From the IMG/VR virus record IMGVR_UViG_3300035698_029165, positions 1 to 54,593 of that record: a stretch of DNA of 54,593 bases, one strand, 5' to 3'. A model generated the notes under the pieces. The model was not told the DNA's origin. It searched no databases and worked only from the letters and a program-made list of their open reading frames with translations. Every line of letters begins with the position of its first letter. Position 1 is the first letter of the stretch. This document shows, in pieces, positions 1,703-49,320 of this stretch. Source of the DNA: a virus. Position numbers and translations under genes: made by a program.

Positions 1703-1710
1703 TTTATCTC

Positions 1711-10947: not shown

Positions 10948-10982
10948 TGTTCATCTCCTTGGGTTAGTTTTCAATGTTCTTT

Positions 10983-11024
10983 CTCTCTTACTACAACAAC
11001 CGAGAAGTCAGGGAAACTAAGCCA
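10983..11024 (-). promoter_or_regulatory. element A copy 1, upstream of the 265-aa gene
   Basis: Minus-strand copy of the repeated element with core GACTTCTCGGTTGTTG, preceded by GGCTTAGTTTCC and followed by TAGTAAGAGAG. It lies between the stop of the repeat-protein gene (11031) and the ATG at 10947. Six copies in the window all face a downstream gene start at similar distance, so a phage-specific promoter or leader is likely. Confidence 0.7.
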
Positions 11025-11030
11025 AAATAA

Positions 11031-12371: not shown

Positions 12372-12413
12372 AGCATAAGTTCCTTTCTTATCTTCGTTTA
12401 GGTTTTCAATCAA

Positions 12414-12456
12414 TCTCTTCTACCCCAACAACCGAGAAGTCAGGGAAACTAAGCCA
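12414..12456 (-). promoter_or_regulatory. element A copy 2, upstream of the repeat-protein gene
   Basis: Copy with GGCTTAGTTTCC, then GACTTCTCGGTTGTTG, then GGGTAGAAGAG. The leader that follows (GAAAACCTAAACGAAG) is also present downstream of the plus-strand copy at 54235, so the shared block runs from the element through the ribosome binding site to the start codon. Confidence 0.7.
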
Positions 12457-12612
12457 AAAAAATAAATCAATTTAGGAACCTCTATGCTATAAGACATAAT
12501 TTTTTGGATTCTAATCACAGGAATCCCTTATTATTTCATGCTGAATGAGGGGGATTTACACAAGTCATGGAGATAACCTGAAGGGCAGTTCTATTTATCT
12601 TTATTTGCAATC

Positions 12613-24714: not shown

Positions 24715-25052
24715 TTATATTTCTTCTCCATTACTGCAATTTCCTCATCAAGAACATCCAAACGAGTATGATTGCCTTGCTGCAAAATGTTAAACACTTC
24801 GTGCAAGGTTTCATTACCTTTAATTGTACCCATCATCGTCTGAGTGTGCTGAGCTCGTTGTAGAATAGCCTTTTTCTCTGCCTTTTTTTTTGCCAAAAGG
24901 GTTATTTCAGAGGGGGTGTCCTTGGTATCCTTAATGACAGTAACCAAATGCTGAAGGATAACAGAATCATCCCTATCTGAAACCCATTGCACCAGATTGT
25001 GCATTAATACCTGCCATGATAGCTCACACGATTGGGGTGGGTAGTTTTTCAT
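24708..25052 (-). CDS. unknown helical protein (114 aa)
   Basis: All-helical, Lys-rich in the middle (LLAKKKAEKKAILQRAQ) with a C-terminal segment LDVLDEEIAVMEKKYK that looks like a short coiled coil. Its ATG overlaps the DNA polymerase stop (ATGA), so it is translated after polymerase. A replication accessory role is possible from position only. Confidence 0.5.
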   Translation of the reverse strand: MKNYPPQSCELSWQVLMHNLVQWVSDRDDSVILQHLVTVIKDTKDTPSEITLLAKKKAEKKAILQRAQHTQTMMGTIKGNETLHEVFNILQQGNHTRLDVLDEEIAVMEKKYKC

Positions 25053-28000
25053 GTTATATGCTCATTAGCTAATGTCCCAAATGTGGACGGGTTAATTAAA
25101 ATTGTCCCATACTCTTTTTCCATAGCCAGCACTTTACCATCTACCGTCAGGACATGAAGAATTCGTGTCCCTTTGTTTTTACACAGGTTGATGACATGGG
25201 CCAGCTGAAACAAAGTTCCTAATGTAAGAGGCTTATGTAATTGATATTTAAAAACACTCCCTGACGGGATGGTTGTTTTCGGGGGTTCCAGGTTTTTTGG
25301 GTTAATATCTATCACAGGGGCAACTGGTGTTACTGGTGTTACTGGTACTGCTTTTACAGGGTTCTCAGGTTCAAGTACTATGTCTATTTTTTGTTGCACA
25401 GCACCGTCAGGTATTGGCTGCGTGACTACAGGATCAGATTCAGGGTTGAAAAAAGGACGGAGGGTATCTGGCCATGTTTCCATATCATCCCAGTTATAAT
25501 TTTCAGGAATATCTTTTGGTTTGTAGAATTTCTTGTCCCCGATGAATCGAATCTCTTTGTATTTGATAGCATTTATATCCCAAGGGACTGTCCAGTTGAC
25601 ACCTATCTCTACATCTGTTGTCAATGGTATCGGCCATTTCTGGGATAGAATCATAGGGTTTCGGCACATTATGGGGTTGATGACCGCAATGGCTTCTTCT
25701 AAAACATCTAGGTCGATTTCAAACACGAGTTCATCATGCATTGTAATAATCATCTGAACCTTGTCCAGCCAACCACGTTTGTTGCATTCATTGTAGACAA
25801 GACCCATAGCAATCTTAGTTATATCAGCCGAAGTATTATGGACAATTAACCCATCACACGAAAAGGCGTGTAAATTATCCAAGACTTCAACATCATACAT
25901 GTTGATAGTTTGGTTAAGGTCTTTTTTATCCGTAACGAAACACCAATCATATGTTAAAGCATCCTGGATTTCTAAAGGCAATTCAGGATTACCATAAAAT
26001 TCCAATAACCGCAGACACTGACTTTTACTACCTAAACCTGCTACCAAACGTAAAACAGCAATTTGTTTGGTACTACCAGAAGATATACTATATTTTTTAA
26101 GGATTTTCCCAATAGAGGTTACAATATTATATGGAAACACCATCTCCCTACCCGTATGTGGCCTCAGTGGGTCTGCTGCAACCCAATCACCATTAATTAA
26201 ATCACCTTGTGGAACCCACTGAAAGGAATCACCCCGCCATACATAAAATAAATGTTCGGGGCTTGTTAAAATAGAATTTCCATCGTTAAAAAACGTTTTC
26301 TGGACTGCTTTCTTTCCTGAGAATAAAGGTCTGGCATGTTCCCATTTTTTTCCTGTCCACACTTCAAAAGATTTCTCGGCATCCCATAAATCTTTAACTT
26401 TTTGTAAACCTTGTTTTGTGGGTACCTGACAATCGGGGTGTAAACATCCTTGAATTGGACCATTAATGGCATTTCGTTCAGCCTTGGAACGGAACCCATT
26501 ATCCGCATGATTAATATCAGGTAAAGGGTATCGTCGTCTAAAAGCGGTCACGACAAAACCCTGTTGTCGAGCAAAGGCATGTTGAGAATCCCACCAGTTT
26601 TTTAAAGTCCTGTAAGTTCCATCGAACTGCCGTTTCAGTCGGTTGCCTTCATTCCTGTCTACACCAGCAGCACGTTGAGCAGCGAGACCACTTCCCCCGT
26701 AACAAAGCGCAAAGTTTAAGCTGTTATGAGATATGACACCAGATGTCCAATATAGATGATCATCCGACTCAACATGTAAATCCATACAGGGCATTTCTTC
26801 TGCTGGGATAATATGCATCACCTTATTAGGAAGACTCGTTCCGGTCTTTCGGTTATGTATCCGCCTGATTTTACCTGGGTGTTTTAGATAAGGTTTAAAA
26901 TACGGAGCTTGTGACCCCGATACTTTAATTCGGTAATACCATTTAGAATAAGTTTTATTCCAAGAAGCCTCACAATACGGAAGAACCCCAACAAATTGTA
27001 ACACAGATGCAATCTGCCCTGCAAAAACAGCATCTTTTGTTGTTACAGATAATATACCATCACGTTTACCTACAGTGCCATCTGTGTCAAACAGCCCTCC
27101 AAGAAACCACATAATAGCTTTTCTACCGTTCCCCAAAACCCAATCAGGAATACGTAATGAGCGTTTCCCACTATCATTGTCTGTGGGGTTTATTAAACCT
27201 AATGATGTAAAAATTCTCATTACATGGCGACTATCAATATATATACTTTGTTTTTTTGGTTTAGGGGAAAATCCAGCATCTTTACAAACACCAACAAGGA
27301 TATTTTGCCACTCTTTATAAGAAATCCCCATTTTATCTGTCTTGGATATATCTCCATGACATAAGGACACTGAATTAGTCCCAGCTTTCGACCCATCACC
27401 TGAAAAAGCTCCTGCAAGGTAAGCTATATGACAGTTAGTATTAATATTCATTTCTGGGAAATCTTTTAAAGGTTTTACCTTAACAGATTTCCACGATGTA
27501 GAGGGCATTGTTAAAGGTTTTGAAGGTTCCGATAGTAAAACTCCCTTTGATAACCCTGTAGTTATGGATTTTAAAGTCCCATCTACCGTTTCAATTCGAT
27601 GTTTGTTGGAACAGGTTAATATCCCTCGACGAGTAATGATATGGTACAGTTTCTTAATTCCTCCATTGTACGTCTCTGTTATCGGTATTTCTTTATGCCC
27701 ATTCCAAACTTTCCACTTACTATTAACTTTTCTAAAAGTATTTATATCACCAATTGGGAAAAATCCAATTCTACGTGGCACAGTACCAGATAGACCAGAA
27801 CTAACTGATATAATACTGTCTGGATGAATACATTTTGCCTTACCTCTGTATTCTTTCCAATCAGGGTTTGCCTGAATCTCTTTACCATACACACTGATAC
27901 CAGTCAATGTATGCAAGTCGCCAATTTTATCAGAGCCACAGTTTGGACATCGGGCAGGAGGTGGTTCAGGAGTACAAGTACCATCACCATGGTCGAATGT

Positions 28001-29650
28001 ACGATCACAACCAGCACAGTGGAAGAATTCAGATAACCACAAAGGTTCCCGTGACAGGTTCGTGACAAGCCTAAGCTCCACGCCTGAATAATCAATTGCC
28101 ACGATAACACGGTCAGGACGACGCACCGTAATACATTCTCGAAGTCTTTGCATACATTCAGGACGCTGAGTACCTCCTGATCGGGGGAGAGCTTGCATAT
28201 TAATGGCAGGCCAACCAACCATGTAATTGGCACTCTTGGATGATATCTCTTTGGTTGGGGTGCTGAACCTTCCTGTGTCTACCTTGTGACCTTGGAAGTT
28301 CACTCGTATTGTATCATCTAAGGGGTCGGAATCATTAAACATAGGGTATAGGTAAGTGGATAAGGCTTTATTTATTTCACGGAATCGTTTAATTTTACTC
28401 ATAAATGGGAACTGCTTCCCAGCTTCTTCAATGATTCGGTCAAGTTCGTCTTTAGAAGTTTTAATCTGCCCTGACTTCTCTGTCCTCTTGAGTCCTTGAA
28501 CCCCCATATCCTCGAACATGTTGCCAAGTTGTTTAGCAGCATTCACATCGTATATGGGAGGCCATTTTTTCCCTGTGGCATCTATGACTTGAGTTACAGG
28601 GTCAGGATACTCTTGTTTTGCCTTTCCTGTAGCTACTTTCAACTGTTCTTTAATGGACAAATGTGGATTGTCTGCTATAAAAGATTCTTGCAGATTTTTA
28701 TAACAACCTGGCATAATGTCCCTGTTCAGAATAGCTTGGGCTTCAGCATATACATCCATGATAGATGTATACCATTCCTTATGGCCAACTTGGATAAGTT
28801 CCCCAAGTTTCTCTTTGTCCAGATGAATTCGGTTACGTTCCATCCAACGTGTGGCTGCCACACACTGTTTCTCTATTTTATAAACGGTTACTTGATCAAA
28901 TCCATGTGCAGGTTTCAGAATATCAGGGGCCAAAATATCATACAGAAGTCTGGTGCAAATACCATCACCGCCACCATACCATAATGTGGAAGGTTCTTCA
29001 GGATCCAACAAGGAGAAATCTTTATCCGTTACTCGAACCCTACCTTTGGCATCTTTCTCGTCAGGGAGGAGTTCCTTCAATTCCAACATTTCGATGCCCA
29101 AGAGCTGCTTGGACAAAGCCTTCAAACCCTTCTGCCGACGGCGTGAGTCTGACAGGTATGCAAGGATAAGAGTATCATCCCACATGTACGTTTTGTCCCA
29201 CGTCCCAAAAGGTTCACCCCCCCAGTAATTCAAGAACTCATGGTCAAATTTACCGTTGTGGAAAACAGCTGCCGTTTGTTTCTCTTCCGTAGCTGTAATA
29301 AGGCGTCGGAAAGCTTTCTCAAACACACCCCACGGAACATTGCTGGGGTATCGAACCTGTGTGTTGTTAATCTTCACTTCAACATGATTTAATGGTATAT
29401 AATAACCTGTGATTCCATCAGGGGATAAACAAACACCTACTAAGCGGTCAACAGTTTTCAGCACACCACCGTGGTCTAAAACTCGGTTATCTAAACCCGT
29501 CGTCTCCACATCCAGAGCATACCTATAGGAATTGATACAGTGATCCATAATCTCGTCGATGTTATCAACAGTCCCAAGAATGAATTTCTTCGTCTTCATC
29601 CATTCCTTTTCTTGGATTGCATCACCGTCACCAATCTGAAAATCTTCCAT
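25049..29650 (-). CDS. polA-like: family A DNA polymerase with proofreading domain and two inteins
   Basis: Replicative polymerase. The 3'-5' exonuclease motifs are intact: DVETTG (Exo I, residues 47-52), FHNGKFDHEF (Exo II, around 130) and YGGGD (Exo III, 225-229). Polymerase motif A is DYSGVELR (520-527). The O-helix RGKAK/SLNFALCYGG is split by intein 1, N-x-PIQG/TSAD is split by intein 2, and motif C is HDEL (1305-1308). No 5' nuclease is present. A CAGC...CPNCG zinc-ribbon insert lies between motif A and the O-helix (545-571). After the core comes a Pro/Val-rich linker and a C-terminal domain of about 70 residues. The ATG at 29650 sits 7 bases after GGAGG; another ATG six bases earlier is too close. 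It must splice twice to be active. Confidence 0.93.
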   Translation of the reverse strand: MEDFQIGDGDAIQEKEWMKTKKFILGTVDNIDEIMDHCINSYRYALDVETTGLDNRVLDHGGVLKTVDRLVGVCLSPDGITGYYIPLNHVEVKINNTQVRYPSNVPWGVFEKAFRRLITATEEKQTAAVFHNGKFDHEFLNYWGGEPFGTWDKTYMWDDTLILAYLSDSRRRQKGLKALSKQLLGIEMLELKELLPDEKDAKGRVRVTDKDFSLLDPEEPSTLWYGGGDGICTRLLYDILAPDILKPAHGFDQVTVYKIEKQCVAATRWMERNRIHLDKEKLGELIQVGHKEWYTSIMDVYAEAQAILNRDIMPGCYKNLQESFIADNPHLSIKEQLKVATGKAKQEYPDPVTQVIDATGKKWPPIYDVNAAKQLGNMFEDMGVQGLKRTEKSGQIKTSKDELDRIIEEAGKQFPFMSKIKRFREINKALSTYLYPMFNDSDPLDDTIRVNFQGHKVDTGRFSTPTKEISSKSANYMVGWPAINMQALPRSGGTQRPECMQRLRECITVRRPDRVIVAIDYSGVELRLVTNLSREPLWLSEFFHCAGCDRTFDHGDGTCTPEPPPARCPNCGSDKIGDLHTLTGISVYGKEIQANPDWKEYRGKAKCIHPDSIISVSSGLSGTVPRRIGFFPIGDINTFRKVNSKWKVWNGHKEIPITETYNGGIKKLYHIITRRGILTCSNKHRIETVDGTLKSITTGLSKGVLLSEPSKPLTMPSTSWKSVKVKPLKDFPEMNINTNCHIAYLAGAFSGDGSKAGTNSVSLCHGDISKTDKMGISYKEWQNILVGVCKDAGFSPKPKKQSIYIDSRHVMRIFTSLGLINPTDNDSGKRSLRIPDWVLGNGRKAIMWFLGGLFDTDGTVGKRDGILSVTTKDAVFAGQIASVLQFVGVLPYCEASWNKTYSKWYYRIKVSGSQAPYFKPYLKHPGKIRRIHNRKTGTSLPNKVMHIIPAEEMPCMDLHVESDDHLYWTSGVISHNSLNFALCYGGSGLAAQRAAGVDRNEGNRLKRQFDGTYRTLKNWWDSQHAFARQQGFVVTAFRRRYPLPDINHADNGFRSKAERNAINGPIQGCLHPDCQVPTKQGLQKVKDLWDAEKSFEVWTGKKWEHARPLFSGKKAVQKTFFNDGNSILTSPEHLFYVWRGDSFQWVPQGDLINGDWVAADPLRPHTGREMVFPYNIVTSIGKILKKYSISSGSTKQIAVLRLVAGLGSKSQCLRLLEFYGNPELPLEIQDALTYDWCFVTDKKDLNQTINMYDVEVLDNLHAFSCDGLIVHNTSADITKIAMGLVYNECNKRGWLDKVQMIITMHDELVFEIDLDVLEEAIAVINPIMCRNPMILSQKWPIPLTTDVEIGVNWTVPWDINAIKYKEIRFIGDKKFYKPKDIPENYNWDDMETWPDTLRPFFNPESDPVVTQPIPDGAVQQKIDIVLEPENPVKAVPVTPVTPVAPVIDINPKNLEPPKTTIPSGSVFKYQLHKPLTLGTLFQLAHVINLCKNKGTRILHVLTVDGKVLAMEKEYGTILINPSTFGTLANEHIT
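25835..26446 (-). other. mini-intein (204 aa) in DNA polymerase
   Basis: Begins CLHPDCQVPTKQGLQKVKDL, with Cys at polymerase residue 1069, and ends GLIVHN (His-Asn, residue 1272), followed by extein Thr. Block B is visible as GNSILTSPEHLFYVW and the C-terminal block as MYDVEVLDNLHAFSCDG. No LAGLIDADG motif is present, so it is a splicing-only form. It interrupts the conserved PIQGT sequence of family A polymerases. Confidence 0.88.
26723..27832 (-). mobile_element. LAGLIDADG intein (370 aa) in DNA polymerase
   Basis: Begins CIHPDSIISVSSG (Cys at polymerase residue 607) and ends GVISHN (residue 976), followed by extein Ser. Block B is LTCSNKHRIETV. Two LAGLIDADG motifs are present, AYLAGAFSGDG and WFLGGLFDTDG, so a homing endonuclease is encoded. 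It splits the O-helix (RGKAK/SLNF), where incoming nucleotide is bound. Confidence 0.92.
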
Positions 29651-29671
29651 ACACATTCCTCCTTCTAGATA

Positions 29672-34558: not shown

Positions 34559-34819
34559 TTAATTTAGCATAGAGGGTTTATAATTTGGATTCCATCGGAT
34601 ATGTTCCTGCCCTTCATCTTTTTCCAACATGCCTATCTCCAACATTTCATAAAGGGCTGTGTAAAGCATATCACTGAAAGGATTCGATGACCAGAACAAA
34701 TCCTTAATTTTCTGGGGACTTCCTTTTTCATCAAGTACAACCCCTAACACAATGGCAAGTTCATGAGATGCTACATCCATGCCACCCCAGTCAACTAACC
34801 GTTCCTTCAATGTTTTCAT
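34559..34819 (-). CDS. unknown small protein (86 aa)
   Basis: Helical, acidic protein with WGGMDVASHELAIVLGVVLD and a C-terminal Trp/Asn segment (IRWNPNYKPSMLN). The ATG overlaps the C5 methyltransferase stop codon. The fold could be a winged helix (MLYTALYEMLEIGMLEKDE resembles a recognition helix plus wing), but this is weak. Function unknown. Confidence 0.5.
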   Translation of the reverse strand: MKTLKERLVDWGGMDVASHELAIVLGVVLDEKGSPQKIKDLFWSSNPFSDMLYTALYEMLEIGMLEKDEGQEHIRWNPNYKPSMLN

Positions 34820-37428
34820 AATTCCATTCCTTTCAAAATATGGGCAATAACATCAATAGTCCAACCATTCCCCAGCATTCTGTACCTCTGATGGTTCGAG
34901 GCTATAGATGTGTATCCTCGGGGGACAGTTTGTAAGACTTCACATTCTTCTGGGGTCATGATTCTATATTTAGTCTTGTCTTCGTTATAAACTCCAACCC
35001 CCTTGGTTCTTCCCCCAGCTGAAGCTCTTAGACATGAAGCTTTACTATCAAGAGCTGAAGGAGTGTCCGCTTTGTACGGGAATTTAATGTCATCTTTCCA
35101 TTCAGCTTCAGAATCATCATCTAGGACATCACATAAAACAAGTTTTTTATCATCAGGTTGGTCAATAAAATTCCCGATTATATAATCACCATCACCAGGG
35201 ATATTTGTCCAATATAACCGTTTTCTATTCTGAGCCGACACAAGGTTGGAATTGATACGAGCACAACTCACACCGAGAAGTTCTGTGATAGCATATTCGT
35301 ATTCCCGTTTCATCTTTACGTTCTCAAGAAGGAAATACTTTGGTTTACACTCTCTCAGAAGTCTAACGAATTCAAAAAACAGTTTACTTCGAGGGTCTTC
35401 AAAATTTAAACCTTTACCAGCAAAACTGAAGCCTTGGCAATTATGCACTATATGATTATTAGCCACATAAGAGTTGTCATCAGCTACTTCAAGATTATAT
35501 ACAACTCCTGTAGATTCTATCTCTTTTATCTCCTTTATAGGGTTCCATACCACATCATCAATCACCCATGCCCTAGACTGCTTTGGATGATATTTTCTAT
35601 AACTAATAGTATAGGTGTTTTGTTGATTTACAGTACGACCTTCTATAATTGTTTTTTCAGGTCTGATTGTGTATTCAATACTACAGGTTGTCCTATACAC
35701 TTTTGCTATTGCTAATGCTAAAGTTCCCACTAAATCCTTGGAAATAGTTGTTGCTCTATAGATATTATTCCTATAACTACCATCTGCAAAATAATACCCT
35801 TCTAAAACTTTCTCTAATAAATTTTTAGGCAAGTCTAATAGCATCTTAGATAGATATTTATTCCCAGCACCTATACCACAATATTTCTCTGCTATTTCTA
35901 CCAACCTCTTATTACAAAAAACAGCTCTATAGGTACTTTTTGTATGTTTGTAAAAAGAATGTTTTAGTTTCACACTCTGCTTAAATAATTTTTTTTCATG
36001 CTCTCCTACTGATATAATTAATTGCCCGTGTCTATGATTAGGTCTATTTTCCGATATTCTATAGTCTTTCCTTGTATGACCATCACCTATATACACCCCT
36101 AGCAGATAGCATTCCTCGGGAGATATATTTAATGGGTTCTTTTCTTTCCTTAAAATGGGTGTCCCTATATAATCATTTTTTTTAATATCACTAACCCCCA
36201 CCCACTTTGGGTTACTAAAAACCCACTCATACGTTTTTTTTTCATTATTCCACAATCTTTTTCGAGACCTAACATAATATGGATGATTAGCAGTAGTTAT
36301 GGTTTTAGTAGCCCCCTGACTCAACAAAACCCATAATTGTTTATTATTGTTACCAACTTTTACGACTCTTTTATAATTACCGTTATGTGTCAACACTTTA
36401 TCATCAACACATACATTTTCAATTAGCCTAATGTCATTTTCACATATAACCTTCGTACCTGCTAAAAAACAAGGAGACCCGCCAATTAATAAATCAATTT
36501 TAGGTAAATCCTTACTAAAAACCTGAGTAACATCCCCCAATTGGATTGTTTCGGGGTAGTTTTTCATGGTTACTTGAATAGCAAACTTATCAATCTCAGA
36601 AGCATAGTAACGAGCTGTTTTAATACCAACACGTTCCAAAGCAATCTGCCCACAGGACATACCGTCAAATAAAGATAATATGTTCATGCCTTTCTTTTCA
36701 GGTTTCTTTTCAGCATTGTCATGAATGTGTTTGAAATATCGGGAAGCTCCTCCTAAGTCACCGTAGCCTGGGTCTCCACGAACATCATCTACTGAAATGT
36801 CTTGCCCTAGACCTTTACCGTTTCCAAAAATGATTGAGGAAGTGGAGATGTTGGCCGTTCGGCCACCTGATGATTTGGTGGGGTCACCACTCTGTACGTC
36901 AATCTGCCGTACAGGACAGTCCCCGACACACTCCCAGGATTGGATTGATTCCATACCAGACTCGTCACCGAACCCAACTGTATAACTGACTCCTTTTACA
37001 CCAATCCCTACACCACGCCCCCAGATATTGCCATGCTGTTCTCCCGACAAGATTCGTTCCTTCACAGGGAGTTTGTCGAAAGTAGTTTGAGGTGCCCCTT
37101 TAATCTTAGAAAGTCCCAAGGAAACACACTCAGGCTTGTGTTCAAGGATGACATTTGAGGGGAATCTCCCCTTCAGGGAGTTTTCTTTGATTTGCTCCTT
37201 CATCATGTCAGCATGACGTTGGGCATCTTCAGGTCGATGCATCCAGGGCTGGCTCCAGCCACCCCGTTTCTTATCTATGGTTTCAGGCCGTTCATCACCG
37301 CCACCCAACCGTTCCCCTGTTGGAGTTATCCTGCAAGCATCAATATTGAGACCACCAATCCCATTCTGCTGGATGTTATTCACCAGTGTTTTCGGGAAAG
37401 ACTTTCTGGCAACGGTAATAACTATCAT
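34816..37428 (-). CDS. dcm-like: C5-cytosine methyltransferase fused to a methyltransferase middle module, with intein
   Basis: 870 aa in three parts. Residues 1-240 are the same middle module as the orphan at 30.7 kb (VARKSFPKTL, GIGGLNIDACRI, GRFPSNVILEHKPEC, GGASRYFKHI). From residue 248 a C5-cytosine methyltransferase follows: motif I ILSLFDGMSCGQIAL, catalytic GGSP/CQGFS split by the intein, ENV motif LLENV, QNRKRLYW and LGNGWTIDVI. Residues 320-663 are the intein. The catalytic Cys is the residue right after the intein, so the enzyme is inactive until splicing. The ATG at 37428 overlaps the previous stop; an in-frame start lies 27 bases upstream. The fusion is unusual and could mean two target activities. 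Confidence 0.88.
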   Translation of the reverse strand: MIVITVARKSFPKTLVNNIQQNGIGGLNIDACRITPTGERLGGGDERPETIDKKRGGWSQPWMHRPEDAQRHADMMKEQIKENSLKGRFPSNVILEHKPECVSLGLSKIKGAPQTTFDKLPVKERILSGEQHGNIWGRGVGIGVKGVSYTVGFGDESGMESIQSWECVGDCPVRQIDVQSGDPTKSSGGRTANISTSSIIFGNGKGLGQDISVDDVRGDPGYGDLGGASRYFKHIHDNAEKKPEKKGMNILSLFDGMSCGQIALERVGIKTARYYASEIDKFAIQVTMKNYPETIQLGDVTQVFSKDLPKIDLLIGGSPCFLAGTKVICENDIRLIENVCVDDKVLTHNGNYKRVVKVGNNNKQLWVLLSQGATKTITTANHPYYVRSRKRLWNNEKKTYEWVFSNPKWVGVSDIKKNDYIGTPILRKEKNPLNISPEECYLLGVYIGDGHTRKDYRISENRPNHRHGQLIISVGEHEKKLFKQSVKLKHSFYKHTKSTYRAVFCNKRLVEIAEKYCGIGAGNKYLSKMLLDLPKNLLEKVLEGYYFADGSYRNNIYRATTISKDLVGTLALAIAKVYRTTCSIEYTIRPEKTIIEGRTVNQQNTYTISYRKYHPKQSRAWVIDDVVWNPIKEIKEIESTGVVYNLEVADDNSYVANNHIVHNCQGFSFAGKGLNFEDPRSKLFFEFVRLLRECKPKYFLLENVKMKREYEYAITELLGVSCARINSNLVSAQNRKRLYWTNIPGDGDYIIGNFIDQPDDKKLVLCDVLDDDSEAEWKDDIKFPYKADTPSALDSKASCLRASAGGRTKGVGVYNEDKTKYRIMTPEECEVLQTVPRGYTSIASNHQRYRMLGNGWTIDVIAHILKGMEL
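35440..36471 (-). mobile_element. LAGLIDADG intein (344 aa) in the C5 methyltransferase
   Basis: Begins CFLAGTKVICENDIRLI (Cys at residue 320) and ends NNHIVHN (residue 663), followed by extein Cys, the catalytic nucleophile. Block B is TTANHPYYVRS. LAGLIDADG motifs are YLLGVYIGDG and LEGYYFADGS, so a homing endonuclease is encoded. Base composition is more A+T-rich than the flanking gene, which suggests recent arrival. Confidence 0.92.
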
Positions 37429-38261
37429 TCTGCAATATCTATTCTCTGCACACAATCCTCACAATTACTTTCACCAATGATGAAAATCTTATTATCTGGA
37501 ATATCCCCAGTTTCAATATGACCGGTCCATAAGAAATTGGCTCCCAAATCAATATAATTATCATCGTCTTCAGATTTGAAAATCAACCCATGAAAAAGAG
37601 TTCTACGAGTGTTCTCAGAAACCAAGATGGTGCTGACCATGATATTGTTTTTCTCAACAACAGTAAAAGCATCGGCCAGAATATCCAATGTCAGGGAACC
37701 TTGAAAAGGTTTCCCCGACCAACCTTCAATCCGTTTCAAGGTTTTATCAGAAGCAGGGTAAGTTCCAAATATGATATTGAATTCCCGAGCCATCCATTCT
37801 AGTTCCGCTTTCATTTCTTCTTTATCTTGAAAATCTATGAAATGCTGTACAACATCTTTAACAACCCCAAAAACAGCTAGGTATGGATTTTTCTTGTGTA
37901 TAGGTTCCATATCATACTTAATGTAACCCTTAAAAAAATCTACAGATTCCTGATAAGCCTCAATTGCAGTTACGTTCTTGGGCACCCCATGTTTCAGTAT
38001 TCGTAACCCTAAGTCTAAAGCTGCTTGGTGAACATTCGGATGTTTGTCAATTTTGATAAGTTGAAACATTTGTTTAGCCCCTAATGGGCGAACCAAATGA
38101 GACAAGGGGATTGGTTCCTCTTCTCGACCTTTTGCCCACGGTACCAAGGCTTGAAGTTTTTTTTCGGCCTCCCCTGGGTATTTAATATCTGGAATCAAAT
38201 GATTTGAAATAGCCATCAATTCATTGAATGTTGTCCAGTGTGTTTTAGTTGCATCCTTCAT
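37425..38261 (-). CDS. unknown protein (278 aa)
   Basis: Helical N-terminal half and a C-terminal half with NNIMVSTILVSENTRRTLFH, then NFLWTGHIETGDIPDNKIFI. That pattern recalls the C-terminal part of some HK97-like or P22-like coat proteins, where a strand-rich segment is followed by GxxWGxxI and a VYxLPE strand. The resemblance is weak and the gene lies among methyltransferases. A CEDCVQRI motif ends the protein. The ATG follows GGAAAGGTAGTTTTTA. Its stop overlaps the C5 methyltransferase start. Confidence 0.5.
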   Translation of the reverse strand: MKDATKTHWTTFNELMAISNHLIPDIKYPGEAEKKLQALVPWAKGREEEPIPLSHLVRPLGAKQMFQLIKIDKHPNVHQAALDLGLRILKHGVPKNVTAIEAYQESVDFFKGYIKYDMEPIHKKNPYLAVFGVVKDVVQHFIDFQDKEEMKAELEWMAREFNIIFGTYPASDKTLKRIEGWSGKPFQGSLTLDILADAFTVVEKNNIMVSTILVSENTRRTLFHGLIFKSEDDDNYIDLGANFLWTGHIETGDIPDNKIFIIGESNCEDCVQRIDIAE

Positions 38262-41702: not shown

Positions 41703-42956
41703 TTAATCCTCCACATCCCATAAATCAATAGGTTCTTGTTCAACAATTTCTGGTTTATAGTCGGATTCAATCAACCGAGGAATGTACCCCTGTTCGCTGT
41801 CCCAATATCTAATTCGGGAGGTTGAAATCCCAACGTAATCTTCTTCACTATCTACCCCAATGAAATCATGACCTGTCTGTATACATGCAATCCCCGTTGA
41901 GCCACTTCCCATAAAAGGATCAAGAATTGGCCCATTAGCCACAGGCACATCGTCCAACAAACGTTCCATTAATTTAATGGGTTTTACCGTATTGTGGCTC
42001 ATACCTATACAAGTTTGAAAAGTGGGTGAGCCTTCCACAGAAAGATTCATCACATCTCCAGTATAAGGAACAAGCTTAATTGATTCTACACATCTAAGTA
42101 CATACCCAACTCCTTCGTGTACATACCCAACTCCTTCATATCCCGTGTAAACAGGTTCCTTTTCCGTATCAAATAAAGAAAGAGGGGTCATTGTATAATC
42201 CCCTTTCCTAATATCTTTTGCTTCAATCCAATTAACACTACCCCCAATAGGAATCTGTTTTCTGTCGGGTCTCCAAATCAAGTATGGGTGGTTGTCAGAT
42301 GAGGGGGCAGTATGATTTGTCCCTTGGATATGAATATCATACAAATGAGTGGATGTATACAGATGTCGACTAACGTCAGATACGGCATTAAATTCCCCAT
42401 TTGCACTAAACACCCTGTCTCCAATTTCTATCTCTTTTATAGGATGGTAACCCTTTATAGTCATCACTAATGTATCTGGATGTAAACATGGATGGAAATT
42501 CTTAATTGGATTTACACCTCTATTCCGAGGATTGTCATCTCCAGGATTCCCTTCCTTACGACCACAGTTACGTTGTTGAGAATTAATAGAATAACACCCA
42601 GCCTCCCGTTCAGACCGGGAAGCCTTGGGTACATAATGGAAATGGCCAGCTTCTCTCACCCAAAGGATAGCATCACGGATATCAAAACCTGCATCCTCAA
42701 TCCTACAAGTTCCAGTATGCCCTGTTGGTTCTGATTCTGGTGCTACCAATAGTAAATGAGCACCAGGCATCAAAATTCTTTTCAGATCTGCTGCCTGTTC
42801 CTCAGTTGGTTGACCAACAGCAATGACTCCAGGCCAGGAGTTATCTTTTTTTTCCCCAACTTCCCAGGTACTAATATCAGATATATACAAAGCCTGCATA
42901 TAAGGAGTGGATATTAAAGTTGTAAGATAATCTAATAGTTCTTGTGGTATTTTCAT
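41703..42956 (-). CDS. phage DNA methyltransferase (C-terminal type) with mini-intein
   Basis: 417 aa. The first part has LKRILMPGAHLLLVAPESEP, DAGFDIRDAILWVREAGHFH and PKASRSEREAG, typical of a family of phage site-specific methyltransferases. Next comes NFHP/TVKPIKLMERLL, split by a mini-intein, then the SAM motif LDPFMGSGSTGIA. No DPPY or TSPPY catalytic motif is visible, so activity may need a partner or a degenerate motif IV. The ATG at 42956 has only a weak ribosome site. The frame stays open to 43115 and encodes GDSGGASRFFKC, the end of the middle module found elsewhere in this window, inside the helicase gene overlap. Splicing is needed to join the two conserved halves. Confidence 0.8.
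   Translation of the reverse strand: MKIPQELLDYLTTLISTPYMQALYISDISTWEVGEKKDNSWPGVIAVGQPTEEQAADLKRILMPGAHLLLVAPESEPTGHTGTCRIEDAGFDIRDAILWVREAGHFHYVPKASRSEREAGCYSINSQQRNCGRKEGNPGDDNPRNRGVNPIKNFHPCLHPDTLVMTIKGYHPIKEIEIGDRVFSANGEFNAVSDVSRHLYTSTHLYDIHIQGTNHTAPSSDNHPYLIWRPDRKQIPIGGSVNWIEAKDIRKGDYTMTPLSLFDTEKEPVYTGYEGVGYVHEGVGYVLRCVESIKLVPYTGDVMNLSVEGSPTFQTCIGMSHNTVKPIKLMERLLDDVPVANGPILDPFMGSGSTGIACIQTGHDFIGVDSEEDYVGISTSRIRYWDSEQGYIPRLIESDYKPEIVEQEPIDLWDVED
41991..42488 (-). other. mini-intein (166 aa) in the methyltransferase
   Basis: Begins CLHPDTLVMTIKGYHPIKEI, block B SSDNHPYLIWRP, ends IGMSHN followed by extein Thr. No LAGLIDADG motif. A 21-bp tandem duplication near 42105-42145 encodes EGVGYVHEGVGYV. 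Residues before and after are NFHP and TVKP, a conserved motif in this methyltransferase type. Confidence 0.88.
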
Positions 42957-43068
42957 GTTTATGTTTTCTCTCAAGCATTTGAAAAAACGAGAGGCTCCAC
43001 CAGAATCCCCATAATAATCAGGATTGTGGTCGAATGCAGCAGTGGCTTTCTGGCCAAAGAAATCACTC

Positions 43069-44718
43069 TCATAAACTATCCAGTATCTCCGCCGTTTTGT
43101 CAACTTCGTCTCCAACCACTTGATTCTGATTTGAAGTCATTGGCATATCGAAACATGTCAAAAGACGACGACATGGCCATTCAACACGAGCCAAAAACAT
43201 CTCAAAAGGTTTTTGGTCACGGGATTTTAAACATTGAAACTGAACTCTGTTAGCAGAAATAAGATCCTCGTCAATCCAAGAAGACGTAACAATGTCAGCA
43301 GAACGCTCACATTCATTTGCATAGCTCAAAGCTGTCACATCATATCGAGCTGCTCCTGTCTTCTCTTTAATCTTCATTGCTGACCGCATACCCTCACGGC
43401 TGATTTGAAATAACCCCACAACAGCAATACCTTCACCTCGATTAAACGACATTGCCAATTTTTTAGTATCCCGAATGATTTCATTATCCCTGTCAGTACG
43501 GCTGGCCACCCATTTACGAGGGGAAAGCAAACTCACATGGTCAATGACAATCATTCTGAAGGAACTCTTGGAATAGATAAGTTCAGCCTTCTGCCGAAGG
43601 TTATCCATAGTGAAATCCATCCTGTTCGGATCAGCAACTTCGATATGGATTTTCCCATAGTCTATTGGTTTTGGATAAGGTTTACCCATCTCATCCACAG
43701 TACAACTCAAAATATCCTTAGTCACAGGGTCATGATACTTTTTCCCTGTCAAAGGGCATGTATCCACATCTATGGACTTGCCATTAAAATCAGGTACCAC
43801 GTAATCAAATAGAAACCTTTTTGCATTAACATGATGCCTATCCAAGGTACCATCACGAAGATTCTCATACTCTAAACCAACAGTATCTGCAGGGGACGAT
43901 TGAAGCCCTAAGTAGTACCTGATCAATCTGAATTTGGGGTGGCTTGAATGAATAGCGTACAGAAGATTCCTGCACTGCTCGTAAGGCATCTCCAAACTGA
44001 ATAATAAACTGGAATGTAGATGATAGATGGCTTGATTATATATCCAATTCAAAGCCCAAGTACTCTTCATGCCTCCTGTAAAAGCAGCATGAATCCACAA
44101 TTCAAATTTTCTAGCCCCGTTAGTAGCAACATCAATTTGAGTCAATCCTGTATGTTGGCCTATTCCAGCTAAAGGGTCAGCCTCGACACGTTCATAACGG
44201 CGTGTGAAATCTTCACCATCCTGAGTTACTTCACCTGAGAGCCGAGAGCCTGTCACAGGAGCTACTACGGCATGACTTTTTTCCAGAAAATAGTGAACCG
44301 AATCCATTGGACCCTTCAACATCTTCTTATCACGACCTTTTCTAATCTCCAATCCCGTTGTCAGGATTGTACCGACATCTTTCATCAATTCCGTGACTTC
44401 TCGAATACGACGTTCCTCTGCTTTCACTCCAAGTCTGGTGTCAAAATCACCCTGGGAAAACCCCTTAATGTTCTCCAACACTCGCAGACGTTCAAGGACA
44501 GTATCCTCACCGGTTCTGGAAAAATGGGTTTGCAAAGTGCTGATGTCAGGAACATGGTTATGAGCTCTGATAAACTGTTTCACAAATTCCCAAATGACCA
44601 CATCTTCAGGAAGGTCAAATTGTAAGCCTGAATCATCGAGTTTTATGTAGTTTCGTAAAAAAAGGTCAAGATTGTCCCCTGGTGCAGCAATAAACGTTGA
44701 ACGCAATAATGTTTTCAT
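43069..44718 (-). CDS. dnaB-like: DnaB-like replicative helicase
   Basis: 549 aa. Residues 1-150 are a helical N-terminal domain. The RecA-like ATPase follows, with ELWIHAAFTGGMKSTWALNW (Walker A, Lys218), SLLFSLEMPYEQ, FRMIVIDHVSLLSP (Walker B) and VVGLFQISREG (motif with Gln). This layout matches DnaB family C-terminal domains. The Walker A reads GGMKST, so Met stands where Gly normally precedes the Lys. It would unwind DNA at the fork. The ATG overlaps the stop of the candidate loader gene (ATGA). Confidence 0.85.
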   Translation of the reverse strand: MKTLLRSTFIAAPGDNLDLFLRNYIKLDDSGLQFDLPEDVVIWEFVKQFIRAHNHVPDISTLQTHFSRTGEDTVLERLRVLENIKGFSQGDFDTRLGVKAEERRIREVTELMKDVGTILTTGLEIRKGRDKKMLKGPMDSVHYFLEKSHAVVAPVTGSRLSGEVTQDGEDFTRRYERVEADPLAGIGQHTGLTQIDVATNGARKFELWIHAAFTGGMKSTWALNWIYNQAIYHLHSSLLFSLEMPYEQCRNLLYAIHSSHPKFRLIRYYLGLQSSPADTVGLEYENLRDGTLDRHHVNAKRFLFDYVVPDFNGKSIDVDTCPLTGKKYHDPVTKDILSCTVDEMGKPYPKPIDYGKIHIEVADPNRMDFTMDNLRQKAELIYSKSSFRMIVIDHVSLLSPRKWVASRTDRDNEIIRDTKKLAMSFNRGEGIAVVGLFQISREGMRSAMKIKEKTGAARYDVTALSYANECERSADIVTSSWIDEDLISANRVQFQCLKSRDQKPFEMFLARVEWPCRRLLTCFDMPMTSNQNQVVGDEVDKTAEILDSL

Positions 44719-45626
44719 TTACGGCCACCCCATTTTTTCTTCTTGTCTTTTTCTTCCATACGCCGAACTTCATTATCAGGATCAAGTTCACCCACCATAG
44801 TAGAAGGTGCAGCTAAACCTGTGGGTGCAGTATTTTGTCGGGAATAACAAACTGTGGGTTTGATTGGTTTGGAGGGGTGAACTTCTTGTGTTATGGGTGC
44901 AGCTTCCCCAGGCACACTAGTTCCAATGCCCATTGAAGATACTCCAACATATGGGTCCAATGCAATATGCTCCCAATCTTCCATATGAGAGCCGACATGA
45001 ACACTATATGAAATATGGCCTTCCATCAATGGATATGAAGGCTGGTCAACCACCCACGTTGGTTTGTCTCTGAAATCCCTGAGTGTCAAGGTTTCTAACA
45101 TAACCTCAGACATGGCTGAATTTCTGGCAGCCTTCACCCCCAAACACACAATCAATAATGCAGGATGCTCTACCAATTCCGATAATGCCTCAATAGGTGA
45201 TTTTTCCATTTTCTGACGTTCATTTTCTCGAATCCCTACAATGTCGGGGTCGTAAACATTCAGACCTTTAGACAACCAGGCATCCATCAACAATGCATCC
45301 GAAACCACAAGGAAATTCCAACGTGGTCCCATCCGTACAGCCACATGTCGAATATGCTGTTTCAGATTAAAGGATGTAGATGTAATCATTATATTAGTCT
45401 TGTGTTTATTAGACAGCTGGGACGATTTGACAGGAGCAGCCTTTGACAGACCTTTCCAACCTCGTTCTAAATTAAGTTTTACATCTCGAACCTGCACACA
45501 ACTGCAAATACGGGTCACTTCCCCCATAGCTACTAAAGGCCGTTCTTCTCGTGTTAAAGATACAACACCTCGGCCACGGCAGAAAGGGCAATTGGGAAGT
45601 CCATCACCAGATGGATAATCACTCAT
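44715..45626 (-). CDS. candidate helicase loader or accessory protein (303 aa)
   Basis: N-terminal zinc-finger-like CPFCRGRGVVSLTREERP, then CSCV, as in many phage DnaC-type loaders. The central region includes TNIMITSTSFNLKQHIRHVA, then FLVVSDALLMDAWLSKG, resembling an AAA+ strand-helix pattern. A Walker A Lys is not visible, so it may be a loader that has lost ATP binding. It lies directly upstream of the helicase gene and overlaps it. The C-terminal 60 residues are Pro/Lys-rich and disordered. The ATG at 45626 sits after GGAGGTTGATA. Confidence 0.6.
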   Translation of the reverse strand: MSDYPSGDGLPNCPFCRGRGVVSLTREERPLVAMGEVTRICSCVQVRDVKLNLERGWKGLSKAAPVKSSQLSNKHKTNIMITSTSFNLKQHIRHVAVRMGPRWNFLVVSDALLMDAWLSKGLNVYDPDIVGIRENERQKMEKSPIEALSELVEHPALLIVCLGVKAARNSAMSEVMLETLTLRDFRDKPTWVVDQPSYPLMEGHISYSVHVGSHMEDWEHIALDPYVGVSSMGIGTSVPGEAAPITQEVHPSKPIKPTVCYSRQNTAPTGLAAPSTMVGELDPDNEVRRMEEKDKKKKWGGRK

Positions 45627-45628
45627 TA

Positions 45629-48600
45629 TCAACCTCCACGAGCATCTGAAAGTAATCCACTGAAAATATCCGAAATATCATTAGATACTTCAATAACGGA
45701 TACGTCATTCTCACCTTTGAAGCGTTTTCCCAAAACGGTTTCAATCAGGTTCATTTTCTTACCCAAAACACCCATAACTCGTTTGTCAATCGTAGCTCCA
45801 TGCATATGACTACTGGCTACCAAATGAAGGGCATAGCAGGTATCATGAACACTCCCTATACGAATCATCCGACCGACCAACTGGATGAAATCACCCGCTG
45901 ACCAAGGTGTGTCATAACAAATAAGAGCCTTAGCTGCCTGAAGATTGATGGCATCTGAACCAGCCATCGTAATACAAGCTACCCGTACATCAGAGTTCGG
46001 GTCCTGAAAGGCTGCCTTGGCTGCCTCACGTTGATCCTCATCCTCAGAACCTGTGATCCGAACAGCAGGTATCTTGGCTTTGGCTAACCTCGGCATAATG
46101 ATGTCCACCATCGTTCGGAACCGAGTGAAGATAATGACATTTTCTTCTGCAAAATCTCCATTAGATAGAATATCTATCAAGGTCTCCAACTTGGGTGATA
46201 AACAATCGGTTGCCCCTATTAACTCCAAGTCATTCACAATCTCCTGACAATAAATGAGGGCAGTCAATTTTGTAGTTTCCTTATCGATCAATCCATTTTC
46301 AGTCCCTATTTCCAACAAACCTTCTAGAGCTTCCTTATATTTATCATCCTGCTCGTGGGTCATCTCCACGGAGATATTCTGAATAGTCAAGGATGGCAAC
46401 TCTGAGGCCACTTCATACTTGGGACGGCCTAGAAAATATGGGGCAATTGTATTCTTGAATTCCAGAACTCGGGACTTGGTATACCCAACTATGACAGGGA
46501 CTTGACGGTTGCTTTTTGGTATTTTCTGCATCCTGGTTATACAGTAATGCTGCATGAACTGACTGGTTGACATCTGGAATAATCCTGGTACCACCACTTT
46601 ATAAATCCCGTGGCCTTCCATCAGATTGTTCTTTATGAGTGTTGCCGTCAATCCCCACACTTTGTCGGCTTGTTCTGCCAGATGTTGACAGACCTGGTGA
46701 ACCTGAGTCTTGGGGTTTTTAAATGCAGTGCAATTTGATACTAAAACACCCCCCGCAAAATAATTATGATTATCTTCAACCTCTAAATTATAAACATATT
46801 GATCTTTATCTGAGGAGGGTGGATTCCAAATAGATTTATATAGTACCCAATCAGTAATCAGTTTATTTTTTGGTGTCACATCTAAAGAATGCGGGTATTG
46901 GAGTTGTAAATAATCAGGAAATTTATACTCTACTCCAGGTAATTTATATGGCATTAAAGCTAAAAATTTACGAGCCTCTTTATCAGGAAGATAAATATGA
47001 GCTAGACATTTTTTAGAACCTGTTTTCCTATCTGACCGTTCCTTTGAGATTTTAATTTGAGCTTGTAGACCCCATTTCCAATTCAACCACCCAACTATCA
47101 ATTCCTGTTCTTCAAAAGTAAAACCCTGAGTGTGTAAAGAAATTGAATATGTAAAAGTATCATTTTTACAAAGATAGGTTGTTAAAGACCCGTCATCTCC
47201 ATACCACACAGCTAATCCTAAAACACCTACTTTATCCAACCAGTCAAAAGTCACGTGTTTTTTATTTCTCTGTCGAATCCGAGACTGTACTAACAAAGAA
47301 GTAATTCCAGCATTACCCTTTAATTGGAATCTGTTGAGAATAGATGTTTCTTTATAACCACTTTGACAAGATGTTATACCAGACACCCCTAATGATCCTA
47401 ATACCTCTTTTTTCCAGTTTAAATAAGCTGATTGTTTTTCAGACTGAATAAAACATACCCCCCATAAATTTCTGTTTGGGTGACTTATACTGGCATCCCC
47501 TAATAAACCTCCAAGTACTATTTGCATCTGATCATCAGTCGGGTAGTTATTGCATAAATACTGAACAGGGCTATCTTTTTTTAATGCTGAAGCCACACAT
47601 TCTTTATCATTAAGTTTATAATATTTATGAGTTTTTGTTACTCTAGTTTTCCCTCCAAATCTAAAAGTAAGGTGGAGTAATTTCTTACTGTTCATCTTAG
47701 TACGTATCCACCGGGTTACTTTTTTTTCTTCGATTTCACTAGTATTTAGATTCTTTGACATTACAGACACAGGTTGTTTTTGACATACAATTTTCCCAAC
47801 CAATTCCTGTGTACCGTCTGCTAAAGTGATTGGTGTGTGGTACTGGAAACATTCGTCCGCAATCAGGACATAATCCTTAAAATGCTGAAGGTGAGTGAAA
47901 TCCTGAACTGCTGACCGATAGCCCATTATCAGGACAGTTGGGCCAGTAGCTTTGGCAAAAGCTTCACGAGCTTTTGCCCGAACCTTGGGGCTGCCTTTAC
48001 AAATGACGGTCGTGATACCCTGAGTAAACTTTTGAAACTCCTGTGCCCACTGTTTAGTGGCGGATTTTGTTGTTAAAATAATAACTTTTTGGCTAGGCTT
48101 CTTTGCCCAAAGATAGCACAGTGCTCCAATAGACTCCAAGGTGTTATGATTCACGAAACCATCGGCCACAAAACAATGTTCGGGATCACTAACTTCAATG
48201 TCAGCTACGGCTTCTTCACCATCCTTAATGTTGACGATGGGATCATAGAAAAAGTTATTCTCACACAACGATTCAGTATAAGAAACATCTACCCGATTTT
48301 TAGGAGTTATAAAGCCAATCTCTTCACCAAAAATACGGGTATCGTCTCCAAATATAGTTAATTTTTTAGGACCCCTGGATGAGATAACCCCAAATCTTAA
48401 AAGTAATATCTGGATTTCCTTCAGCATTTGAATAGAAGCACTTGATACTTCAATAATGCCCTTTGTAACAGAACCTTCACAATCAAAAAAAGCACGAAGG
48501 AATGCTGCTACTGATTCACGTGTACTTTGAAAAATATGCCTGGGAATATATTGATCTTTTGAAATACTTTTATCTCGTTCTGGCACAGGTAGGGTTGGTT

Positions 48601-49159
48601 TGATCTCAGGAAACTTTGATAAAGATCTGTCTATACAGATAAAATCCCCCTCTTGAAGGTTTCTAGTCTGAATGAACTCAAAAGTACCATCAGATTTCCT
48701 GACTTTTAAAGGGTGGACTAAAGACCCAGTTGTTTCATAACCTCTACGGGTAGTTATTGTTTTAGTAGGTTTAACCCCACAATTATAAAACTTTTTAATA
48801 GATGCCCATTTTGTCCCCGTCCAAACCTGAGTAGGTTGACTGAGCGGGTAGAACGTGTCAGGTTTTAACTCAATATTAACAGGAGCCAGATCCTTTAATT
48901 GCAGTAGCCCTCGATCAGTTAAAACCCAAGTAAGAAAACTGGTGCACTTACCCAATCCAGTGTCGTCCCCTAATATGAAACGTTTCATCAACAGCAGATG
49001 GAAAATCCCCTGAACCTGATAATATCTGATATTCAACGGTTTTTCTGTCCCATCAAAATCTGTGAATGTCTCTTTCAGAAACTTGGTTGGCTTCAAAACT
49101 AAATCTTGTCGTTCACGTATACCTTTCAGCTTCTTTTGAACTTTGTCCATATTTGACAT
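45629..49159 (-). CDS. SNF2/SF2-type DNA helicase with two inteins
   Basis: 1176 aa, of which about 535 are exteins. Motifs in order: RYYQVQGIFHLLL (Q-like), Walker A GDDTGLGK/T split by intein H1, VIILTTKSATKQW (Ia), VLIADE/C (DEAD-type motif II) split by intein H2, WGLTATLIKNN (III), NVIIFTRFRTMVDI (IV), then DAINLQAAKALICYDTPWS (V) and QLVGRMIRIGS (VI). This layout is an SNF2-like or RapA-like ATPase. Both inteins sit inside the ATP-binding machinery, so unspliced protein cannot hydrolyse ATP. The ATG at 49159 is chosen for AAAAAAGGGAG upstream; the frame continues to 49216 within element B. It may act in recombination-dependent replication or fork remodelling, as T4 UvsW does. Confidence 0.88.
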   Translation of the reverse strand: MSNMDKVQKKLKGIRERQDLVLKPTKFLKETFTDFDGTEKPLNIRYYQVQGIFHLLLMKRFILGDDTGLGKCTSFLTWVLTDRGLLQLKDLAPVNIELKPDTFYPLSQPTQVWTGTKWASIKKFYNCGVKPTKTITTRRGYETTGSLVHPLKVRKSDGTFEFIQTRNLQEGDFICIDRSLSKFPEIKPTLPVPERDKSISKDQYIPRHIFQSTRESVAAFLRAFFDCEGSVTKGIIEVSSASIQMLKEIQILLLRFGVISSRGPKKLTIFGDDTRIFGEEIGFITPKNRVDVSYTESLCENNFFYDPIVNIKDGEEAVADIEVSDPEHCFVADGFVNHNTLESIGALCYLWAKKPSQKVIILTTKSATKQWAQEFQKFTQGITTVICKGSPKVRAKAREAFAKATGPTVLIMGYRSAVQDFTHLQHFKDYVLIADECFQYHTPITLADGTQELVGKIVCQKQPVSVMSKNLNTSEIEEKKVTRWIRTKMNSKKLLHLTFRFGGKTRVTKTHKYYKLNDKECVASALKKDSPVQYLCNNYPTDDQMQIVLGGLLGDASISHPNRNLWGVCFIQSEKQSAYLNWKKEVLGSLGVSGITSCQSGYKETSILNRFQLKGNAGITSLLVQSRIRQRNKKHVTFDWLDKVGVLGLAVWYGDDGSLTTYLCKNDTFTYSISLHTQGFTFEEQELIVGWLNWKWGLQAQIKISKERSDRKTGSKKCLAHIYLPDKEARKFLALMPYKLPGVEYKFPDYLQLQYPHSLDVTPKNKLITDWVLYKSIWNPPSSDKDQYVYNLEVEDNHNYFAGGVLVSNCTAFKNPKTQVHQVCQHLAEQADKVWGLTATLIKNNLMEGHGIYKVVVPGLFQMSTSQFMQHYCITRMQKIPKSNRQVPVIVGYTKSRVLEFKNTIAPYFLGRPKYEVASELPSLTIQNISVEMTHEQDDKYKEALEGLLEIGTENGLIDKETTKLTALIYCQEIVNDLELIGATDCLSPKLETLIDILSNGDFAEENVIIFTRFRTMVDIIMPRLAKAKIPAVRITGSEDEDQREAAKAAFQDPNSDVRVACITMAGSDAINLQAAKALICYDTPWSAGDFIQLVGRMIRIGSVHDTCYALHLVASSHMHGATIDKRVMGVLGKKMNLIETVLGKRFKGENDVSVIEVSNDISDIFSGLLSDARGG
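46733..47851 (-). mobile_element. LAGLIDADG intein H2 (373 aa) in the helicase
   Basis: Begins CFQYHTPITLADGTQEL (Cys at residue 437) and ends GGVLVSN (Ser-Asn, residue 809) followed by extein Cys. Block B is RVTKTHKYYKL. LAGLIDADG motifs are VLGGLLGDASI and GLAVWYGDDGSL. It splits the DExx box (IADE/CTAF). The penultimate Ser replaces the usual His, which may slow Asn cyclisation. Confidence 0.9.
48143..48946 (-). mobile_element. intein H1 (268 aa) in the helicase
   Basis: Begins CTSFLTWVLTDRGLLQL (Cys at residue 72) and ends DGFVNHN (residue 339) followed by extein Thr. Block B is TTGSLVHPLKVR. One LAGLIDADG motif, AFLRAFFDCEGSV, is visible and a second is not clear, so the endonuclease may be a half-site or decayed form. 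It splits Walker A between Lys and Thr (GLGK/T). Confidence 0.88.
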
Positions 49160-49210
49160 AGGTATGCATCTCCCTTTTTTAACAGAGGTCAAACTTCGGC
49201 TATATATTTT

Positions 49211-49320
49211 AGTCATAAGGAACTTGAACTGTTAACCAAACGGGTTAACAACTGCCCTTTTCTTGCTTCATAGATAATAGTTTCGTCCTTGCTTGCCCTT
49301 GGGGCAATGCACTGACCAGA
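49211..49320 (-). promoter_or_regulatory. element B, long form
   Basis: Same order as the copies at 17 kb and 41.6 kb: TTGCCCCAAGGGCAA hairpin, shared ACGAAACTATTATCTATGAA block, perfect GTTAACC/GGTTAAC hairpin, then AGTTCAAGTTCCTTATGACT. It is 50 to 160 bases upstream of the helicase ATG at 49159. An open frame across it (49213-49398) looks like an accident of the repeat. Confidence 0.6.

Follow-up and report, generated by a model that had tools for sequence, protein, structure and literature searches.

Why should the two stretches of a helicase's ATP site that are under the strongest constraint each carry an intein? The question is raised by a gene at 45629..49159, on the minus strand, of the IMG/VR virus record IMGVR_UViG_3300035698_029165, a single record of 54,593 bases that is referred to here as the window. 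The gene encodes a helicase of the SNF2 family, within superfamily 2 (SF2), and two inteins, designated H1 and H2, interrupt its Walker A motif (helicase motif I) and its DExx box (motif II), respectively. With a probability of about 0.9, we regard it as the gene of an SNF2-type helicase, probably from a phage with a large genome, into which two LAGLIDADG inteins unrelated to each other have inserted; these would be spliced out of the protein and would represent a cost rather than an evolved switch. Two independent selfish inteins lodged in these two stretches provide the simplest account of the data presented below.

The reading frame is open over 1195 amino acids (aa) from its most upstream ATG (45629..49216, minus strand). 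The ATG at 49159, adopted as the start in the first-pass annotation, is preferred over the one at 49216 because an AGGGAGA motif, likely the ribosome-binding site (49169..49175, minus strand), lies 9 nucleotides before it, the same motif and distance being found in the homologue of the closest relative, the viral contig L009. In L009, a stop codon just upstream closes the frame. The precursor read from 49159 comprises 1176 aa, and the mature helicase would retain ~535 aa once both inteins were excised. Counted from the ATG at 49216, as are the intein borders given below, the spliced product is 554 aa long. Its three parts, all on the minus strand, are an N-extein (48947..49159) ending in the Walker A motif (...DDTGLGK), a middle extein (47852..48142, TLESIG...VLIADE) of 97 codons (291 bp) ending in the DExx box, and a C-extein (45629..46732) that holds the C-terminal helicase motifs, including motif VI (QLVGRMIRIG), and the stop codon.

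That a single SNF2-type helicase is interrupted in both motifs, as first proposed from the letters of the sequence, is borne out by the Pfam domains and by gap-free extein alignments. Indeed, the frame matches SNF2-rel_dom (E 4.5e-19) and Helicase_C (8.8e-17) together with Intein_splicing (1.6e-19), LAGLIDADG_2 (1.1e-20) and LAGLIDADG_3 (4.5e-12), the intein domains lying far above chance, and the C-terminal splice motif of TIGR01443 is found over its cut-off at the ends of both H1 and H2. The presence of PF00176 and PF00271, and of GLGKT, DECT and QLVGRMIRIG in the spliced product, places the protein among the SNF2-family SF2 helicases. An assignment as an anti-phage defence helicase was rejected, the PADLOC matches being to generic SNF2 proteins (DpdE 7e-28, ZorD 2e-24) and far weaker than the match to phrog_62 DNA helicase (4e-68).

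The junction residues initially read from the sequence are confirmed, with Cys1 in both inteins and a +1 residue that is Thr for H1 and Cys for H2. Intein H1 (48143..48946, minus strand; 268 aa, aa 91-358) splits the Walker A motif as GLGK/CTSF...FVNHN/TLES. It has the attributes of a class 1 intein, Cys1, a His-Asn end and +1 Thr, in the window as in all 16 H1 carriers of the helicase family described below. The Ser-x-x-His of block B (S75, H78), the block F His (H257), H267 and N268 are invariant in these 16 sequences, the usual Thr of block B being replaced by Ser in every one of them. The Hint domain of the window H1 is intact; it is modelled by AlphaFold2 with a mean predicted local distance difference test score (pLDDT) of 90.3, mostly 92-98, and the predicted fold matches inteins of the PDB by Foldseek, namely TliVMA (1e-13) and the GyrA and RecA inteins. 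The endonuclease of this copy retains LAGLIDADG motif 2 (FLRAFFDCEGS), and alignment shows that motif 1 and the C-terminal DNA-binding part have been deleted, so that only one of the two motifs is left. Motif 1 is kept in 14 of the 16 H1 inteins, and the other endonuclease-bearing H1 inteins measure 433-463 aa with both motifs; in L112, the whole endonuclease has been lost from an H1 of 193 aa, independently of the deletion in the window. With motif 1 and the C-terminal endonuclease part gone, the window H1 is most likely an ageing copy that would be unable to home alone.

Intein H2 (46733..47851, minus strand; 373 aa, aa 456-828) splits the DExx box as IADE/CFQY...VLVSN/CTAF and carries an I-SceI-like LAGLIDADG endonuclease. 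Its class 1 residues, C1, the Thr-x-x-His of block B (T72, H75) and N373, are invariant in seven sequences, and the +1 residue is Cys in 7/7. The penultimate His, usual but not obligatory in inteins, is absent from H2, and it was suggested at first that the resulting Ser-Asn end could make splicing slower. A reading of this end as a defect is not supported. All seven H2 inteins end in LVSN in spite of a mutual identity of about 43-57%, the block F His (H362) is invariant, and splicing without a penultimate His is documented as a tolerated variation (Chen et al. 2000, as cited in PMC4031507). Since it is common to all seven, the Ser-Asn end is a feature of the H2 group and not a sign of decay. 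The endonuclease has both LAGLIDADG motifs (LGGLLGDAS and LAVWYGDDGS) with D119, D219 and D220 invariant, and it matches I-SceI and I-WcaI at ~26% identity and a root-mean-square deviation of ~3 Å; it thus looks intact, and H2 may still be mobile. H1 and H2 are not duplicates of each other, as they share no meaningful similarity except over a short splicing block at the C-terminus (E 0.023). A search for further relatives with H2 alone returned one viral contig only. In the phage collection, the best non-helicase relative of H2 is the RNA-ligase intein of the Pseudaeromonas phage KLEP7 (OM654377.1), 31% identical over its full length, which differs from H2 by its host gene and site, its VHN (His-Asn) end and its +1 Ser.

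The relatives of the helicase show what the uninterrupted sites look like. Intein-free phage homologues, if the two junctions had been misplaced, should fail to align across them; the L009 helicase, which has neither H1 nor H2 and is 84% identical to the window extein, aligns without a gap across both. At the DNA level, the match between the window and L009 stops at 48948/48145 and at 47852/46729, a few bases from the intein borders. Likewise, the spliced 554 aa align with the helicase of LR745208.1, an uncultured phage of 485 kb, at 59% identity with no gap at either junction. LR745208.1 shares with the window an H1-type intein at the same position and the order of the downstream genes. It differs in having an H1 of full length, 463 aa with both LAGLIDADG motifs, and an empty H2 site (DEAS).

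Occupancy was then considered across 83 distinct helicases of the family, collected by scanning viral contigs twice and bacterial genomes once, with the window and LR745208.1 added and duplicates removed; in such a sample, intein-free matches rank higher because split matches score lower. Of these helicases, 16 have H1, 7 have H2 and 64 have no intein at any site. A third intein, H3, is found in three proteins (L038, L091 and L114) in helicase motif VI (Q/C...VGN/C-x-GRMIRIG), with a penultimate Gly. Seven proteins hold two inteins, H1 with H2 in the window, L031, L035, L042 and L043, and H1 with H3 in L038 and L114. On a tree of 82 exteins, the 16 tips with H1 need 15 changes, the 7 with H2 need 7 and the 3 with H3 need 3. 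Close relatives differ accordingly: L107 with H1 and L098 without any intein have exteins ~99% identical, and L071 (H1 only) is a close relative of L108 (H2 only). Furthermore, inteins at one site diverge more than their hosts, as in L094 and L114 (exteins 89% identical, H1 inteins only 39%) or L107 and L112 (96 and 69%). Changes that are nearly as numerous as the occupied tips, and close relatives that differ in content, denote a turnover of occupancy at the tips, the pattern of a mobile element. As for bacteria, the matches listed in the genome scan comprised L122 (59%) and the short partial match L192 (46%), both on contigs of metagenome-assembled genomes, and beyond these only distant SNF2 proteins (25-29%).

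The residue that follows each intein was compared between filled and empty alleles. The Thr at the +1 position of H1 belongs to the Walker A motif and corresponds to the residue that binds Mg in P-loop ATPases. Because of this role, all 16 carriers have Thr here, and each of the 67 empty alleles has either Thr or Ser. At the H2 site, in contrast, +1 is Cys in 7/7 carriers, and the 76 empty alleles have Ala (64), Val (6), Cys (4) or Ile (2), a difference in Cys between carriers and empties with p 8e-8 by a tip count that is not corrected for relatedness. The H3 site behaves similarly, with Cys in 3/3 carriers vs 1/79 empty alleles with a readable site. H2 and H3 thus alter a conserved residue of the mature helicase. 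The empty alleles that nonetheless have Cys, in the DExx box (L011, L041, L073 and L111) or in motif VI (L031), may be scars left by inteins that have since disappeared, or may descend from permissive ancestors.

These data suggest the following scheme. Each intein would target a motif that the host is not free to alter: H1 separates the invariant Lys of Walker A from the Thr that follows it, and H2 enters the DExx box right after Asp-Glu. Excision of class 1 type would take place after translation, by an acyl shift at Cys1, transfer to the +1 Thr or Cys and cyclisation of the Asn; gap-free extein alignments and conserved splicing residues lend this excision indirect support. For splicing, H1 would recruit the Thr of Walker A as nucleophile, and as this residue is reused, empty and filled H1 sites look alike. 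H2 would supply its own +1 Cys, probably through co-conversion during homing, and because it brings this Cys, DEAT would become DECT in the mature enzyme. The ATPase would be inactive as long as either intein remained, which is most simply understood as a cost that keeps splicing under pressure to succeed. It is reasonable to expect, by analogy, that unspliced or half-spliced precursors do not hydrolyse ATP: the position of the insertions makes a biochemical lock plausible, as does the P-loop intein of Pyrococcus RadA, which disrupts ATPase function according to the citation in PMC6195587.

Two observations weigh against the explanation favoured here. The window and L043 both have H1 and H2, and the identities of these inteins (57% for H1, 52% for H2) are near that of the exteins (60%), so that vertical inheritance with losses in L009, L010 and L011 is also conceivable for this clade. 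In addition, the excess of synonymous change around H1, clear in the filled and empty pair L107/L098 (p 0.0004), is weak when the window is compared with L009 (p 0.08), and mosaic patches of this kind also turn up in control pairs. Co-conversion tracts, considered as proof of recent homing, were therefore retained as suggestive only, the both-empty control pair L058/L059 being patchy near H3 (p 3e-5). An ancestor of the window, L043, L009, L010 and L011 that had both inteins, subsequently lost in the empty members, has in our estimate somewhat less than an even chance; it bears on history alone and is compatible with the explanation we favour. This five-member clade is robust (Shimodaira-Hasegawa-like approximate likelihood ratio test, 99), and in the empty L011 the residue at the H2 +1 position is still Cys, the outcome expected of a precise loss. 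However, L009 and L010 have Ala there, so that loss in these two would require replacement by an empty allele or a reversion, and parsimony on the tree cannot tell gains and losses apart. For the window clade, the data support a recent gain and vertical descent with subsequent losses equally well.

The invasion of this helicase by two inteins also leaves room for a subordinate role of H1. Lacking one of the two LAGLIDADG motifs that H2 has, and located 97 codons from it, H1 could be a passenger, the H2 endonuclease cutting an empty allele and repair copying H1 along, 291 bp away; such a co-transfer was raised as a question in PMC10643990. We hold this to be doubtful. No transfer event is visible, motif 1 is kept in the H1 of L031, L035, L042 and L043, so that the half-deleted state is specific to the window among the carriers of both inteins, and co-homing was inefficient in haloarchaea, where both endonucleases are active (PMC10643990). 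By extension, the inteins of motifs I, II and VI might be the equivalent in phages of what is seen in haloarchaeal MCM, with an endonuclease-defective Walker A intein that persists and spreads along with the DExx-box intein, itself mobile and located 291 bp from it, an Ala-to-Cys change in the DExx box and Cys scars in former carriers, a tentative parallel that is rather unlikely to hold as a whole.

Less probable still is the proposal that the two inteins form a double regulatory lock, in which splicing senses the state of infection, redox or DNA and the helicase becomes active only once both are released. Both inteins do lie at residues of the ATP site, and in Mycobacterium smegmatis DnaB the P-loop intein is slow and reversibly blocked by oxidation, the second one being fast (PMC6195587). 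Moreover, five of the seven H2 carriers also have H1, an association that is significant by tip count (Fisher p 0.0026; 0.0096 without the window). Once relatedness is allowed for, though, this significance disappears (sign test, median p 0.22), and the co-occurrence was discarded as evidence of cooperation. The occupancy counts and tree changes given above, with close relatives differing in content and most of the family intein-free, speak against a regulatory design as put forward in the first-pass annotation, and the Ser-Asn end, being group-wide in H2, is not a tuned slow variant. The distribution argues against a conserved switch role, since a switch under selection would be marked by conservation, which these inteins do not show. 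Finally, that both inteins are dead for splicing and the gene a decaying pseudogene is hardly tenable, for apart from the truncated H1 endonuclease, the entire 1195-aa frame is open, the helicase motifs are intact, all splicing residues are conserved in H1 and H2, and the H1 Hint part is confidently predicted.

The helicase is not the only interrupted gene of the window. Six inteins occur in four genes of DNA metabolism, always at a motif that is catalytic or strongly conserved: two in the helicase, two in a PolA-type DNA polymerase, one in a C5 cytosine methyltransferase and one in an N6-type methyltransferase, all on the minus strand. Those of the polymerase (gene 25049-29656) lie at 25835-26446 and 26723-27832, with the junctions YRGKAK/C...SHN/SLNFALCYG (370 aa) and NGPIQG/C...VHN/TSADIT (204 aa). 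In the C5 methyltransferase (gene 34816-37455), the intein at 35440-36471 (344 aa, GGSP/C...VHN/CQGFS) has as its +1 Cys the catalytic Cys of the PCQ motif. The N6-type methyltransferase (gene 41703-43115) has a mini-intein of 166 aa at 41991-42488 (NFHP/C...SHN/TVKPIK), which is missing from its L009 homologue according to the DNA alignment; a search of the 88.8 kb L009 record with the TIGR01443 C-terminal motif found no intein. Records of other carriers have several TIGR01443 matches, with eight in LR745208.1. Downstream of the helicase, a protein of 305 aa without a family match (44715..45632, minus strand) is syntenic in LR745208.1 and is followed by a DnaB-like replicative helicase (43069..44718, minus strand), free of inteins in the window, whose counterpart in LR745208.1 contains, after GGLK, an insert whose ends resemble those of an intein. 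In LR745208.1 (L001), intein-like inserts are seen in the neighbouring UvrD-like and DnaB-like helicases (667-5892, minus strand, and 9866-12718, plus strand), near IDEAQDLNK and after GGLK, and other TIGR01443 matches are scattered over the rest of this record. Elsewhere in the window, 11031-12413 (minus strand) encodes a 460-aa protein of short repeats of the type LSEEFIREFQDKVDWDxISxYQ, and 1711-7134 and 101-1702 (minus strand) encode large proteins with repeats of the types 'ADASTADGKAVAAQGDATQAL' and 'THESPDTD', perhaps tail-fibre-like.

Helicases interrupted by inteins are already known, M. smegmatis DnaB and haloarchaeal MCM among them, and the window adds a further example; in the open-licence literature, we found no report of motifs I and II both filled in one SF2 helicase. 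A likeness of position, also in phages, is offered by the mycobacteriophage terminases (PMC5050341), in which TerL1-a lies between the Walker A Lys and Thr and TerL1-e in Walker B. The host there is a packaging ATPase, and sites a and e are described as separate sites. The Snf2 intein of Deinococcus radiodurans (Brace et al. 2010, cited in PMC4031507) has a SNF2-family helicase as host and, according to the same citation, differs in being class 3 (block F Cys). DnaB of M. smegmatis (PMC6195587) is like the window gene in having two inteins (DnaBi1 and DnaBi2), the one in the P-loop without an endonuclease and the other with one, and in having a P-loop residue that doubles as the +1 splicing nucleophile. 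It differs in that it is a RecA-type replicative helicase and not an SNF2 protein, in that DnaBi1 is class 3 with +1 Ser, and in that the second intein occupies the DNA-binding H4 motif rather than Walker B/DExx; splicing was measured there and is predicted from the sequence here.

The haloarchaeal MCM helicase (PMC10643990) bears a likeness to each of the two sites. MCM-a, like H1, is inserted after the Walker A Lys, at a site conserved in empty and filled alleles. MCM-d, like H2, imposes a residue on its host, since it needs a +1 Ser where empty alleles mostly have Pro, just as H2 needs a Cys where they mostly have Ala; invasion by MCM-d requires co-conversion, and this logic was demonstrated experimentally for MCM-a and MCM-d. 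Single, double and empty alleles coexist in both families. The differences are that MCM is an archaeal replicative helicase, that MCM-d lines the DNA channel instead of interrupting a DExx box, and that both endonucleases were shown to be active there, in contrast to the half-deleted H1 of the window. Providing the expected spliced sequence should prevent such helicases from being misannotated as broken genes or as endonucleases. With filled, empty and doubly filled relatives, the three intein alleles in motifs I, II and VI constitute a natural data set that bears on how inteins choose sites immutable in the host, on how a nucleophile is imposed on a host without one and on whether a crippled intein can travel with its neighbour, the question left by the haloarchaeal study.

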